A DNA stretch of 26,545 nt from a virus, in the IMG/VR virus record IMGVR_UViG_3300042568_000316, positions 1-26,545 of that record. One strand, 5' to 3'. A program made the position numbers and the translations under genes. Position 1 is the first letter of the stretch. Each line of letters begins with the position of its first letter. Below are positions 6,439 through 19,659 of the stretch, piece after piece. A model generated the notes under the pieces. The model did not search any database and had not been told where the DNA came from. It saw only the letters and a list, made by a program, of their open reading frames with translations.

Positions 6439-7136
6439 CGCGCCCGCCTCTCAATCAACTCCATCACCTCGCCATCACCGGCCTGCTCGGCAGTTGGCGC
6501 AAACAGAGCGCGGTTACGCGAGGCAGCGCCATCGCGGGGATCGCACAGGAAGTAAACCGCCAAGGACTTGCGGTGCTGTCCTACAGGGCACGCTACAGGC
6601 TCAGGCAGGCCATGCCAAGCGTTTGTCGTGTCGAAGACCACAGCGCGATTAAACAGCGGCGCGATTGACTTCATCAACTCGCCGGGCTTTCCATTGTCAT
6701 CGCGCCACAGCCCGAGCGAGCCGCCCCATGACTCCTGCCAGTCGGGGTTAAGGTACACGATGAGATTGAGTCGGCGCTCCAGCTTGAGCTTGGGGTGAAT
6801 GCTGTAGTCCAGATGCGGGTTTAGCTTACCGCCAGAGCCGTGAATGTGTAGGCCGGCACCATGGAGGCCGTAGTCTGGGAATAGCCTGCCATTTGTCAGA
6901 GCCTCAAAAGGCAAGATGCACTCAAGCGAGTTCATGTCATAGAAAAACCTGTACAGGTCAGGCGAGAAGTGGTGCCAGTTGTTGCAGGTCTTCTTCACCT
7001 CGATGGCGTTATCGTATGAATGCCAGATCGGTGAATCGAAGTCGGGGAAGTCGCTGGACAGTTGCAGAGCCTGCTGCTCATCCATGAACCCGTCAATCAC
7101 CAGATGCGGGAATGGATCGATGCTATCCCATCTCAT
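6432..7136 (-). CDS. 2-oxoglutarate/Fe(II)-dependent oxygenase (prolyl-4-hydroxylase-like)
   Basis: A 234-residue protein on the minus strand. The Fe(II)-binding triad is visible: H108-x-D110 in KLNPHLDYS and H175 in AWHGLPEP. R189 (QHRKSLAVYF) is the expected 2-oxoglutarate-binding residue about 14 residues after the distal His. The opening PFPHLVIDGFMDEQQA is the usual start of phage and bacterial enzymes of this family (2OG-FeII_Oxy_3 type), and length is normal. Such enzymes hydroxylate amino-acid side chains or nucleic acids; the substrate here is unknown. It is the last gene of the leftward HTH-RuvC-oxygenase operon, its ATG sharing four bases with the RuvC stop. These genes are common in environmental phages, but an operon with a resolvase and a regulator is less usual. 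Confidence 0.85.
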   Translation of the reverse strand: MRWDSIDPFPHLVIDGFMDEQQALQLSSDFPDFDSPIWHSYDNAIEVKKTCNNWHHFSPDLYRFFYDMNSLECILPFEALTNGRLFPDYGLHGAGLHIHGSGGKLNPHLDYSIHPKLKLERRLNLIVYLNPDWQESWGGSLGLWRDDNGKPGELMKSIAPLFNRAVVFDTTNAWHGLPEPVACPVGQHRKSLAVYFLCDPRDGAASRNRALFAPTAEQAGDGEVMELIERRARY

Positions 7137-7597
7137 TGGCGTGCCCCGTAGGCGGCGATCAGCGCGGCATCGCTGCGCCCGTTGTCCTTAACGCGCTTGA
7201 ACAGTTCAGCGTGCGCCGGGAAAAGCTGGGCGGCGCGATAGCGCGAGCCATCCTTTCCGGCGGGCACATCAAGCGCCTTCTGCCAGGTGCGCGGCGGGAT
7301 CGTCGTGGTCGGGATGTCGAGGGCTGCGAGTATCCCAAGGACAACGCCCAGGCTCTGGCCCATGCTGAACATTGACGTTACGCCCTGACCGGGCATCGCG
7401 TTAAGTCGCTCTAGGTACGCGCAGCCGGGTGCTGCCTGCCTGATAAGGCGAGCCAGCTCGGCGGCATTGACCATGCGCTTTGACTTGTTGTTGCGCTCCA
7501 GCGTCACAATGGGCATGTCGTGGACTTCTAGGAGATCGCCGTTTTCGATCAGCGCGATTGCGCCGTCAAGGCCAATGTCGATGCCGAGGGTTTTCAT
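7133..7597 (-). CDS. RuvC-like Holliday junction resolvase (phage type)
   Basis: A 154-residue protein of normal size for the family. Motifs: GIDIGLDGAIA at the N-terminus with catalytic D7; YLERLNAMPGQG with E63; a TTTIPPRTWQKAL segment; and C-terminal KDNGRSDAALIAAY carrying D143 (and D138). These acidic residues form the RNase H-fold Mg2+ site that cuts four-way junctions. In phages this enzyme resolves branched replication or recombination intermediates before packaging. It overlaps by ATGA with the HTH gene upstream and the oxygenase gene downstream, so all three are expected on one leftward transcript. Its separation from the rightward replication genes is notable. Confidence 0.88.
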   Translation of the reverse strand: MKTLGIDIGLDGAIALIENGDLLEVHDMPIVTLERNNKSKRMVNAAELARLIRQAAPGCAYLERLNAMPGQGVTSMFSMGQSLGVVLGILAALDIPTTTIPPRTWQKALDVPAGKDGSRYRAAQLFPAHAELFKRVKDNGRSDAALIAAYGARQ

Positions 7598-7836
7598 GCC
7601 TTGCCGGCTATTTCTAGGCTTTCAGACATCTTCTTGAGGCGAGCGGCTATCAGGGCATCAACTGATGCCTCTAGCCGTCTTACGGACCCGTAGAGCGGCT
7701 CGGTGATGCCGCCATGCCAGCGGCTGACCTGCGCCTGATCGATCTCCGCAACGCGGCAGACGTCAGACATGCGAAAGCCTGCCGCCTCGGCCTTGTCCTT
7801 TATTTCAGAAATCGCTTGCTGCGCGTAAGTTGTCAT
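7594..7836 (-). CDS. Small helix-turn-helix regulator (possible phage repressor)
   Basis: An 80-residue protein. Residues about 22-43 (RMSDVCRVAEIDQAQVSRW) fit a helix-turn-helix of the Cro/C1/XRE type, with the usual spacing between the first helix and the V-S-R-W recognition helix. The rest is a basic and helical tail. It is the first gene of the leftward operon and overlaps ruvC by ATGA. A minus-strand promoter places the predicted transcription start about one base before its ATG, so the mRNA is probably leaderless. A perfect 14-bp palindrome overlaps the -35 box, suggesting it controls its own promoter. It is shorter than full CI repressors and lacks a peptidase domain, so any induction would not be by LexA-type self-cleavage. 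Confidence 0.75.
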   Translation of the reverse strand: MTTYAQQAISEIKDKAEAAGFRMSDVCRVAEIDQAQVSRWHGGITEPLYGSVRRLEASVDALIAARLKKMSESLEIAGKA

Positions 7837-7843
7837 GCGTAGA

Positions 7844-7873
7844 ATTGTATCCCGCTGATGACTTGCAAGTCAA
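7844..7873 (-). promoter_or_regulatory. Leftward sigma70-type promoter for a leaderless HTH transcript
   Basis: Read on the minus strand: -35 TTGACT (7868-7873), spacer 18, -10 TACAAT (7844-7849). The expected start is about 7837-7838, directly at the HTH ATG (7834-7836). That leaves no room for a Shine-Dalgarno sequence and implies a leaderless mRNA. Inferred from consensus match only. Confidence 0.6.
7859..7872. promoter_or_regulatory. Perfect 14-bp palindrome, candidate operator
   Basis: TGACTTGCAAGTCA is identical on both strands. It lies 23 bp upstream of the HTH gene and covers most of the -35 box of the leftward promoter. This is where a dimeric HTH repressor would be expected to bind. 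A weaker relative (TTGATGGTCTAGTCAA, 8014-8029) overlaps the -35 of the rightward promoter. Confidence 0.6.
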
Positions 7874-7883
7874 ATGGCATGGC

Positions 7884-7912
7884 AAAAAAAGGGCGAGGCG
7901 TGAACCTCGCCC
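7884..7912 (-). terminator. Intrinsic terminator facing left
   Basis: Perfect 8-bp stem GGGCGAGG (7891-7898) / CCTCGCCC (7905-7912) with a 6-nt loop. On the minus strand it is followed by seven T (A-run 7884-7890 on plus). Only the leftward reading gives stem then U-run. It lies upstream of the leftward promoter, so it would end transcripts that start farther right, not the HTH operon itself. Confidence 0.7.
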
Positions 7913-8010
7913 GAAGGGCATGGCAACTGCGGGGAGACACCGCAGTCGAGACAGGTTGCCCTGGCTCCGGGTTGATTCTAAGGGTCTGAGTATCCGACTA
8001 AGATGTAGGG
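7884..8010 (-). ncRNA. Candidate small leftward RNA ending at the intrinsic terminator
   Basis: The terminator at 7884-7912 has no gene to serve on its strand: no leftward reading frame ends just before it. The 100 bases to its right fold well. There is a 7-bp stem ACTGCGG (7926-7932) / CCGCAGT (7940-7946) nested inside GGCAAC (7922-7927) / GTTGCC (7955-7960), with an alternative outer AGGGCA/TGCCCT pairing. A short structured RNA with a terminator at its 3' end would explain this. The 5' end is a guess: a TTGACT box (8024-8029 on plus) could be its -35, but no good -10 is seen. Confidence 0.3.
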
Positions 8011-8013
8011 TAT

Positions 8014-8041
8014 TTGATGGTCTAGTCAATTGTGATATGAT
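8014..8041 (+). promoter_or_regulatory. Rightward extended -10 promoter for the ATGA-linked operon
   Basis: -35 TTGATG (8014-8019), spacer 16, -10 TATGAT (8036-8041) preceded by TGA, an extended -10 (TGn). The expected start near 8048 leaves a short leader with a GGGAG site before the ATG at 8075. It is divergent from the HTH promoter, and the -35 lies inside a partial copy of the operator palindrome. Confidence 0.65.
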
Positions 8042-8074
8042 GCAGTTGTCAGCAACCAACTGGGAGAACGCAAC

Positions 8075-8263
8075 ATGAACCACAACCACAGCAACAACAC
8101 GGGCCGAGTGCATCGAACGATGGAATCTGCCTTCGGCCCATACTCTCGCGGCGCGATCTATGAGCCGTACACCCCAATGACCAAAGCAGACCGCATCGTC
8201 GTCGGTGTCAGCATCGTCGTCATGGTCGGTCTGCTCACGGCGCTGCTGCTGGGGGCGCTATGA
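8075..8263 (+). CDS. Small membrane protein, first gene of the rightward operon
   Basis: A 62-residue protein with GGGAG about 9 nt before the ATG. The N-terminal 37 residues are polar and His/Asn-rich. Residues about 40-62 form one hydrophobic helix (RIVVGVSIVVMVGLLTALLL) running to the C-terminus, as in tail-anchored proteins, with the N-terminus probably in the cytoplasm. It is the first gene after the strong extended -10 promoter, hence probably early. Role unknown. A single-helix holin is possible, but position next to the switch rather than with lysis genes argues against it. Its TGA is inside the ATGA of the next gene. Confidence 0.65.
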   Translation: MNHNHSNNTGRVHRTMESAFGPYSRGAIYEPYTPMTKADRIVVGVSIVVMVGLLTALLLGAL

Positions 8264-9419: not shown

Positions 9420-9697
9420 CAGACACAAAAAGCAGCCGGCGCATTGCCCAGGTTAGGGCGCTTCTACACGCAAACCCCGACGGACTCACAGTAGCCGAGA
9501 TCCTTCAGAGGATACCGTCAATGTATCAAGCGCATCTGGCTCGCATTCTGCGGGCAATGCCTGACTCTTACATCGACAGGTGGGTGCGAGGGAAAACACC
9601 GGGAGCGCATCGAGCAGTGTGGTGCGTGATAGTGCCGCCAGAAGATTGCCCCAGGCCATATCGGTCAGACGAGTCAATAAGGAGAAAGCGCAAATGA
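9416..9697 (+). CDS. Putative winged-helix-like small protein
   Basis: A 93-residue basic protein. ATG 9416 forms ATGA with the previous stop and is preferred over the in-frame ATG at 9380. Residues about 10-55 ([40 protein letters not shown]) look like a helix-turn-helix or winged-helix layout, followed by a beta-like [10 protein letters not shown] segment and a Lys/Arg tail (SIRRKRK). I infer nucleic-acid binding. It could regulate the operon or act on DNA with the downstream enzyme genes. It overlaps the next gene by ATGA. Confidence 0.5.
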
Positions 9698-10566
9698 TTG
9701 ATCCATTCAAAATTGATGGGCCTACATGCATCAGCTTCAGCGGAGGACGCACAAGCGCCTACATGCTGTGGCGGGTGCTGCAATCTAACGGCGGCCTTCC
9801 TTCAGATGCTGTCGTTTGTTTCGCCAACACCGGCAAAGAGGACGAGGCAACGCTGCGATTCATCCGAGACTGTGGCGAACATTGGGGTGTGCATATCAAC
9901 TGGCTGGAGTTTCAGCAGGAAGACCCGCAGTTTAAGGTTGTCAACTTCTATTCTGCAAGCCGCGACGGGGAGCCATTTGAGGCCATCATTCGTAAGCGCC
10001 AATACCTGCCCAATCCCGTGACAAGGTTTTGCACCAGCGAACTAAAGATTCGCACGATGCACAAGTGGCTTCGGGCCAATTGGCAAAAGCTCGGATGGGA
10101 TGCCCATGACCTTGAGTGGGATCAGATGATCGGGATCAGAGCGGACGAGCAACGAAGAGTTTCAAAGATTCGTAAACGCGGGCATAGCACGGAGACTACA
10201 AAGGAAACTATGAGAATGCCTCTCGCTGATGCGAATATCTCGCTCATCGAAATCGATGCGTTTTGGGCAAAGCAGCCGTTTAAGTTGGAGCTACCAACCT
10301 ACAACGGAAGAACGCTTGCAGGGAATTGCGACCTGTGTTTTTTAAAACCAGCGAATCAAGTGTTTACCCTCATAAAAGAAAAGCCAGAAAGAGCCGTTTG
10401 GTGGGCGAAGATGGAGGCGCTGGCGCTGGCGCTGGCGTCTAAGCCTGACGGCGCTGTCTTTAGAAAAGACAGGCCGAATTACGCTGCGATGACGCGCTTT
10501 GCGCAAGATCAACGCGACATGTTTGACAAAAACGAAGAAGGCATCGCCTGCTTCTGTGGAGATTAA
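9694..10566 (+). CDS. PAPS-reductase-like ATP pyrophosphatase with candidate Fe-S cysteines
   Basis: A 290-residue protein; ATG 9694 forms ATGA with the previous stop and has GGAG nearby. The PP-loop S16-G-G-R-T-S21 (CISFSGGRTSAYML) is the nucleotide-binding signature of the PAPS reductase/N-type ATP pyrophosphatase family. Next come VVCFANTGKEDEATL and R-F-C113-TSELKIR. Cysteines at 113, 212 and 215 (GNCDLC) and 286/288 (CFCGD end) could hold a 4Fe-4S cluster. Known relatives include CysH (sulfate assimilation), DndC/IscS-linked phosphorothioation enzymes and phage homologues of unknown role. It lacks an obvious canonical CysH C-terminal ECGLH signature, so sulfate reduction is not assured. 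It ends the ATGA-coupled operon and precedes DNA metabolism genes, so nucleic-acid modification is also possible. Confidence 0.78.
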   Translation: MIDPFKIDGPTCISFSGGRTSAYMLWRVLQSNGGLPSDAVVCFANTGKEDEATLRFIRDCGEHWGVHINWLEFQQEDPQFKVVNFYSASRDGEPFEAIIRKRQYLPNPVTRFCTSELKIRTMHKWLRANWQKLGWDAHDLEWDQMIGIRADEQRRVSKIRKRGHSTETTKETMRMPLADANISLIEIDAFWAKQPFKLELPTYNGRTLAGNCDLCFLKPANQVFTLIKEKPERAVWWAKMEALALALASKPDGAVFRKDRPNYAAMTRFAQDQRDMFDKNEEGIACFCGD

Positions 10567-18834: not shown

Positions 18835-18861
18835 TGATATTTTCAATTCAAGGGGTAAACC

Positions 18862-19032
18862 ATGAAGATGGCAGAAGCTGCGAAGAAGATTGAGAGGGTG
18901 ATGGGTGAGTATGGCAAGGGTAAGCTGCACAGCGGGTCTAAGAAGGGTCCGGTTGTGAAGAACCAGAAGCAAGCCGTAGCAATTGCCTTATCTGAAGCCG
19001 GCAAGAGCAAACCGATGAAAAGGGGTAAATGA
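18862..19032 (+). CDS. DUF6496-like small basic protein
   Basis: A 56-residue protein with AAGGGG before the ATG. GEYGKGKLHSGSKKGPVVKN followed by QKQAVAIALSEAG is the pattern of the DUF6496 family, found in many phages and some bacteria, with unknown role. It is strongly basic, ends KPMKRGK, and may bind DNA or be packaged. The TGA lies inside ATGATG, the start of the next gene, so they are coupled. Its place next to terminase and portal is typical for this family. Confidence 0.75.
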   Translation: MKMAEAAKKIERVMGEYGKGKLHSGSKKGPVVKNQKQAVAIALSEAGKSKPMKRGK

Positions 19033-19499
19033 TGGCAACCGAGATGGAAATGGAAATGATGTCCTGCCCGCGAGCAACGCAGGACATTACGCTCAATCTG
19101 AAGAACCGTGGCGAGGCCATTGATTCTGCGAATTACGGCCCCGAGAACCCGAAATTGCCGAACTCGGGTTTCTGGCGCGAGATGGCGAATGAGTGGGATG
19201 TGAGTACCGATGAGGCGAAGACTGCTCGCTGCGGTAACTGCGCCGCGTTTAATCGTTCGCCTGCGATGCTTCAGTGCATTGCCAAGGGTGTGGGGTCTGA
19301 GGGCGATCCTTGGGCGACGATTGAGGCTGGCGATCTGGGGTACTGCGAGATCTTTGATTTTAAGTGCGCCGCCTCGCGTACCTGCCGGGCTTGGGTTGCC
19401 AAGGAGGATGAGGATTACGAGGACGAAGAGGGCGAAGAAGACGAGGAATACATGGGCAAGGAAAACGCCAAGATGGAGGGCGAGGATTATGAAGACTAA
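19029..19499 (+). CDS. Cys-rich protein with acidic tail
   Basis: A protein of 155-156 residues; either ATG of ATGATG (19029 or 19032) could start it, and 19032 has better spacing from AGGGG. The conserved core is RCGNCAAFN ... LQCIAKG ... LGYCEIFDFKCAASRTCRAW, with six cysteines suited to binding zinc or an iron-sulfur cluster. The last 30 residues are highly acidic (EDEDYEDEEGEEDEEY). I know similar core patterns from phage proteins next to terminase and portal, all of unknown role. The TGA at 19030-19032 of the previous gene overlaps its start. Confidence 0.65.
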   Translation: MMATEMEMEMMSCPRATQDITLNLKNRGEAIDSANYGPENPKLPNSGFWREMANEWDVSTDEAKTARCGNCAAFNRSPAMLQCIAKGVGSEGDPWATIEAGDLGYCEIFDFKCAASRTCRAWVAKEDEDYEDEEGEEDEEYMGKENAKMEGEDYED

Positions 19500-19659
19500 G
19501 CCCGCTGGCTTGTACGCCAACATTCACGCCAAACGCAAGCGCATCGAGGAGGGTTCCGGCGAGAAGATGAGGAAGCCGGGATCGCCTGGAGCGCCTACGT
19601 CGAAGGCATTTAAGGCTGCGGCGAAGACCGCCAAGCCGCCTAAATCGGCCAAAAAGTAA
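19489..19659 (+). CDS. Small basic phage protein (GLYANI-AKRKRI family)
   Basis: A 56-residue protein overlapping the previous gene by 11 bases in another frame. MKTKPAGLYANIHAKRKRIEEGSGEKMRKPGSPGAPT is a pattern I know from many phage genomes (G-L-Y-A-N-I-x-A-K-R-x-R-I ... R-K-P-G-x-x-G-A-P-T). The tail is Lys/Ala-rich. The role is unknown, but it occurs with portal and terminase genes. Its strong charge contrasts with the acidic tail of the protein encoded just before it, so the two might interact. Confidence 0.7.
   Translation: MKTKPAGLYANIHAKRKRIEEGSGEKMRKPGSPGAPTSKAFKAAAKTAKPPKSAKK

Follow-up and report, generated by a model that had tools for sequence, protein, structure and literature searches.

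A predicted leaderless HTH repressor gene, putative operators and a candidate small RNA gene in the control region of a group of freshwater tailed phages

Does a divergent control region in a phage genome recovered from IMG/VR represent a lysogeny switch, or does it serve some other kind of early-gene regulation? The question is raised by the record IMGVR_UViG_3300042568_000316, of which positions 1 to 26,545 were analysed (26,545 nt; this whole stretch of DNA is referred to as the window). Here a leftward promoter (PL) in front of a gene for a small HTH protein and a rightward promoter (PR) point away from each other, and the original prediction had noted the resemblance of this layout to a lysogeny switch. 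The window derives from a tailed phage, with genes for terminase, portal, scaffold, major head protein, primase/helicase and exonuclease as well as PAPS-reductase-like genes. The rightward operon includes an auxiliary metabolic gene, the PAPS-reductase-like gene at 9580-10566 (phrog_424, E 1.6e-47). Between the terminase and portal genes there is a 226-aa minus-strand ORF (18843-19523) without a PHROGs match.

A search of IMG/VR with the HTH protein identified 149 related places, 80 of which were kept. The upstream regions of these relatives were aligned gap-free from the HTH ATG, and the proteins, about 50-100% identical, were assigned to three HTH clades (A, B and C). The module described below belongs to a group of freshwater tailed phages. 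Among database phages there was no close one that was similar in the control region, and in homologues from Bordetella phages (33% identity) the layout was not kept. The features of the region are listed in Table 1.

Table 1. Coordinates of the features in and around the control region (numbering of the window)
Feature	Position	Strand	Description
RuvC-like Holliday junction resolvase gene	7133-7597	-	phrog_1770, E 5.6e-31; 4-nt overlap with the HTH gene
HTH repressor gene (predicted role)	7594-7836	-	80 aa; predicted Cro/CI (XRE) fold; recognition segment IDQAQVSRW
PL	7844-7873	-	TTGACT (7873-7868)-N18-TACAAT (7849-7844); 7 nt before ATG; predicted start 7836-7837, at or 1 nt before ATG
OL (putative operator)	7859-7872		TGAC-N6-GTCA, TGACTTGCAAGTCA; on PL -35; in clade A the four outer bases on each side are invariant and the six inner ones vary
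Predicted small RNA	7884-7974	-	about 85-91 nt; hairpins, conserved CAGUUGCC, terminator
Small RNA, intrinsic terminator	7884-7912	-	stem 7891-7912, T run 7884-7890
Small RNA, conserved CAGUUGCC	about 7922-7929	-
Small RNA, central hairpin	7926-7946	-	loop UGUCUCC
Small RNA, 5' hairpin	7948-7967	-
Ps -10	7975-7980	-	TAGAAT; in relatives TAGAAT/TACAAT/(G,C)ATAAT/TGTAAACT
Box upstream of Ps -10	7989-7999	-	consensus A(G/C)TC(A/G)(A/G)NTATT; replaces a good -35
PR	8014-8041	+	TTGATG-N16-TATGAT, TGn extended -10; divergent early promoter (predicted)
OR1 (putative operator)	8014-8029		TTGATGGTCTAGTCAA; on PR -35; 9/10 to TTGAC-N6-GTCAA
OR2 (operator-like, weaker)	8038-8051		TGATGCAGTTGTCA; over PR -10/start, 23 bp from OR1; imperfect
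Rightward operon gene 1	8075-8263	+	62 aa, no family match; other genes in its place in relatives

The HTH protein is predicted to adopt the Cro/CI (XRE) fold. Its AlphaFold2 model (pLDDT 90) contains four helices and by fold matches XRE proteins in the PDB, namely P22 c2, SinR, DdrO, C.Esp1396I and further C proteins, and POU-specific domains. A sequence search of the PDB with the HTH profile gave no meaningful match. Members of the family matched Pfam HTH_3 (PF01381) with a best E of 1.2e-6, the window protein alone being below the Pfam cut-offs. The recognition segment was invariant in 26 of 26 aligned members, and clade C proteins (50% identity) retained IDQAQ with small changes after it, an observation consistent with one common DNA specificity. 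Going leftward, the HTH gene is followed by the RuvC-like resolvase gene and a 2OG-oxygenase-like gene, and the short overlap between the first two was retained in the clade A and clade B relatives checked. The pairing was also considered as a general trait of RuvC phages and rejected, the distant RuvC relatives examined having no matching HTH gene upstream. In one relative (L027) the longest reading frame from the HTH stop resembles the start of a DNA methyltransferase, not RuvC, although the contig also carries RuvC.

The leftward promoter, TTGACT and TACAAT separated by 18 nt, was present as originally described. Between its -10 hexamer and the ATG lay exactly 7 nt in every one of the 48 distinct upstream sequences representing the three HTH clades, and an SD-like motif within the final 20 nt was seen in none of them, compared with 14 of the 21 rightward window genes checked. 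Taken together, the constant gap and the missing SD provide strong indirect support for the view, already put forward in the original prediction, that the HTH mRNA is leaderless, with the start codon at its 5' end. The relatives share the order terminator, TTGA-type -35, 18-nt spacer (clades A and B), -10, 7 nt and ATG. Clade C, with only 50% HTH identity, keeps the layout; TAAAAT-N6-ATG, a comparable arrangement, occurs in a phage from Manatee Spring (43% identity). The lambda cI mRNA synthesized from PRM is leaderless, and the comparison with lambda cI is a fair one with respect to the leaderless start.

The 14-bp palindrome reported to cover the PL -35 was found there and is perfect (OL, Table 1). 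All 20 distinct upstream sequences of clade A had TTGAC and GTCA at the -35 and in the spacer of PL, and the six inner bases and most of the flanking spacer varied among them. The invariant GTCA in the spacer is not accounted for by the promoter alone, which explains TTGAC only. The left site of clade B is looser and degenerate, TTGAC-N6-(A/C)ACAA. On the opposite side, both the divergent extended -10 promoter and the partial relative of the palindrome on its -35 were found where they had been placed. The window OR1 has one mismatch; nearly all relatives carry TTGAC-N6-GTCAA or a variant differing by 1-2 bases on the PR -35, with best scores of 8-10 out of 10 against a mode of 6 in shuffled sequences. 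The distance between OL and OR1 is about 160 bp (about 155-180 bp in clade A, somewhat less in clade B). A third site, absent from the original prediction, is OR2; TGAT-N6-(A/G)TCA occurs at the same 23-bp spacing in many relatives. The 434 operator is 14 bp long and consists of 4-bp half-sites around a 6-bp centre, a geometry shared by the operators described here.

By pattern alone the region is unremarkable: chance would give 1.4 ± 1.1 promoter-like sites in 3 kb and 2 were counted, and in the relatives a strict TGACN6GTCA turns up about every 6 kb. It is the conservation among relatives that leads us to take the control region as real, beyond chance. Proteins of the XRE type can serve as activators of transcription and not only as repressors. 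Repression is favoured here by the location of a single OL on the PL -35, and most likely the HTH protein represses both its own gene and the rightward early operon.

The promoter pair and the palindromes of the original prediction stood up to the comparison, but a whole predicted RNA gene between the two promoters had been missed. In relatives with a complete region, a hexamer resembling a -10 box on the minus strand is followed by a short structured segment and then by an intrinsic terminator, the latter present in every one of them; its T run stops just short of the PL -35. The fold z-score was -4.4 for the minus strand and -2.0 for the plus strand, and G-U pairs also favour the minus-strand sense. 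Among the clade A RNAs 97.7% of the cells were paired, with two-sided changes in 8 of 23-24 pairs. The covariation score was 0.283; shuffles gave 0.151, none of 500 reaching the observed value, and slid structures no more than 0.101. In clade B, where the RNA is shorter at about 65-76 nt, a hairpin, CAGUUGCC and the terminator are kept, with covariation in the terminator stem; across the relatives the length is about 65-100 nt. No Rfam family was matched at the gathering cut-off, the best sub-threshold hit scoring 18.6 bits against 50. These features suggest that the region probably contains a gene for a stable small RNA, which may act in trans. The central loop in clade A carries UCUCC, complementary to the Shine-Dalgarno sequence. 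Pairing with the PR mRNA leader was considered as a possible role and rejected, as it was no better than in dinucleotide shuffles (mean z -0.4, 60 pairs).

The presumed promoter of the RNA (Ps) has a conserved box 7-12 nt upstream of its -10 in most relatives. The box looks like the site of an activator or of an alternative factor. The combination of box and -10 was found once in each of four clade A relatives, the exact pattern missing the diverged copy of the window. A general late promoter can be discounted, because in the relatives scanned the combination occurred at this locus only.

From the features of the sequence and the degree to which they are conserved, together with the predicted fold and the RNA covariation, we consider that the region is a Cro/C-protein-like early-gene control module with a leaderless HTH gene, repression at OL and the OR sites, and an embedded small RNA gene, and we assign this reading a probability of about 0.7. 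Transcription from PL would produce a leaderless mRNA for the HTH protein, with the overlapping RuvC resolvase gene in the same operon. The HTH dimer would bind to TTGAC-N6-GTCAA-like operators of 434/C-protein-like geometry at the PL -35, at the PR -35 and weakly at the PR -10, and with its accumulation HTH synthesis and the rightward early operon would be shut off. Ps, the third promoter between PL and PR, would direct synthesis of a structured RNA of 65-100 nt ending at the terminator before PL, and this terminator would also keep Ps transcripts from entering PL. Expression from Ps is possibly aided by a factor at the conserved box, and the RNA could act in trans or in timing. The degenerate left operator of clade B and the imperfect OR1 and OR2 of the window speak against this scheme.

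The module resembles the Cro-CI systems of lambda, 434 and P22 in its small HTH_3-like fold, in the sites on divergent promoters and in the (predicted) leaderless repressor mRNA, as made for lambda cI from PRM. It differs from them in having one repressor only, in the distance of about 160 bp between the operators, with a predicted RNA gene in between, in the variable first gene on the right-hand side and in that no integrase was seen in the records searched (see below). Short phage RNAs with a terminator in a regulatory region, such as lambda OOP RNA, P22 sar and P1 c4, are also comparable (PMC12197685); in contrast to these, the RNA described here does not overlap a target gene, has no Rfam match and differs in sequence and structure.

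It appears rather improbable that the region is a genuine lysogeny (immunity) switch belonging to a temperate phage, with the HTH protein as prophage repressor and with integration or persistence achieved by means other than those listed here. Divergent promoters, shared operators and a leaderless repressor are indeed reminiscent of lambda cI and of cI/cro of the telomere phage PY54, whose leaderless repressor mRNAs start at AUG and whose operator and promoters share one intergenic region, as they are predicted to do here (PMC4488713). PY54, however, is temperate, with facing cI and cro genes and a linear plasmid prophage (PMC4488713). In the relatives' records, which may be fragments and extend to 36 kb at most, searches run with positive controls detected no tyrosine integrase (16 relatives) and no serine recombinase or ParA (10 relatives), and two short peptide patterns found no relative in 84,980 bacterial genomes. 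The first rightward gene of the window had no HTH match and two facing regulators were not encountered; as this gene differs between relatives, there is no conserved opposing Cro/CI partner. Nothing beyond the layout supports the proposed lysogeny switch. We also consider it unlikely that the HTH protein works like the controller (C) protein of an R-M system, which would be made from a leaderless transcript, activate itself at low level and repress at high level through GACT...AGTC-type boxes, and time the RuvC operon. The C proteins (C.Esp1396I, C.PvuII) are a second close parallel, since GACT-tat-AGTC is the form of the C.PvuII-type boxes and leaderless transcripts are common for C proteins (PMC4824078); in addition to the GACT/AGTC-like half-sites and the predicted leaderless transcript the likeness includes the presumed autoregulation and the predicted fold, with C.Esp1396I and its relatives among the top matches. 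In C-boxes, however, two operators lie together in front of a single promoter and the spacing is odd (GACT-N3-AGTC), whereas here the spacing is even (TGAC-N6-GTCA), there is one site per -35, and a divergent early operon would be controlled as well. Moreover, the next gene encodes a RuvC resolvase and no restriction gene follows, and the single OL on the -35 is better suited to repression.

For the RNA, a doubtful alternative is that it serves as an antitermination or attenuation leader: Ps transcripts would stop at 7884 unless a factor bound to the box let them into HTH-ruvC, in the manner of lambda PR'-6S-tR' and Q. This proposal fits the order of elements ahead of the operon, where a promoter with a conserved box close to the -35 position is succeeded by a short leader and a terminator. 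It is less compatible with the start of PL immediately after the terminator and with the long HTH leader without SD that the read-through mRNA would have, and the fact that no Q-like gene was identified also counts against it. The hairpins could, alternatively, be just a strong terminator isolating PL, with an incidentally conserved 5' part. The terminator is the most constant element; however, the 5' and central hairpins covary in clade A, CAGUUGCC and the upstream box with the -10 are conserved, and there is no other nearby leftward gene whose transcription would need stopping, which makes this explanation very improbable.

The module amounts to a compact regulatory cassette, conserved in three clades of abundant freshwater phages in which no integration genes were detected. 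Every part of it is predicted at single-base resolution, from the leaderless repressor through the two or three operators to the new RNA family. It is a natural test case for asking why so many phage repressors are leaderless and what function a small RNA fulfils within the repressor region of phages that perhaps do not form lysogens. A far more tentative idea is that in these possibly virulent phages the leaderless Cro-like repressor and the small RNA form a timing or decision circuit, in which the exposed CAGUUGCC, shared with terminator-linked RNAs of unrelated phages, would be a common seed or protein site directed against a host target. Scanning IMG/VR for GCAGTTGCCTT plus a G run yielded at least 120 matching places; among the matches listed, 99 had a hairpin and a T run, and these fell into 8 of the 24 context clusters. 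By comparison, the 27 places yielded by a permuted control motif of the same dinucleotides included no terminator in any of their 17 clusters. Of the eight clusters, two represent the module described here, and some of the others have homologous downstream genes, thus the independent cases are few. CAGTTGCC was observed directly before, or in the loop beside, intrinsic terminators in several other phage groups (L298, L299, L269, L322, L232, L310, L205 and L210). In the group of L299 and similar loci TATAGT-N6-ATG follows right after the terminator, and the gene starting there is again likely to be leaderless.
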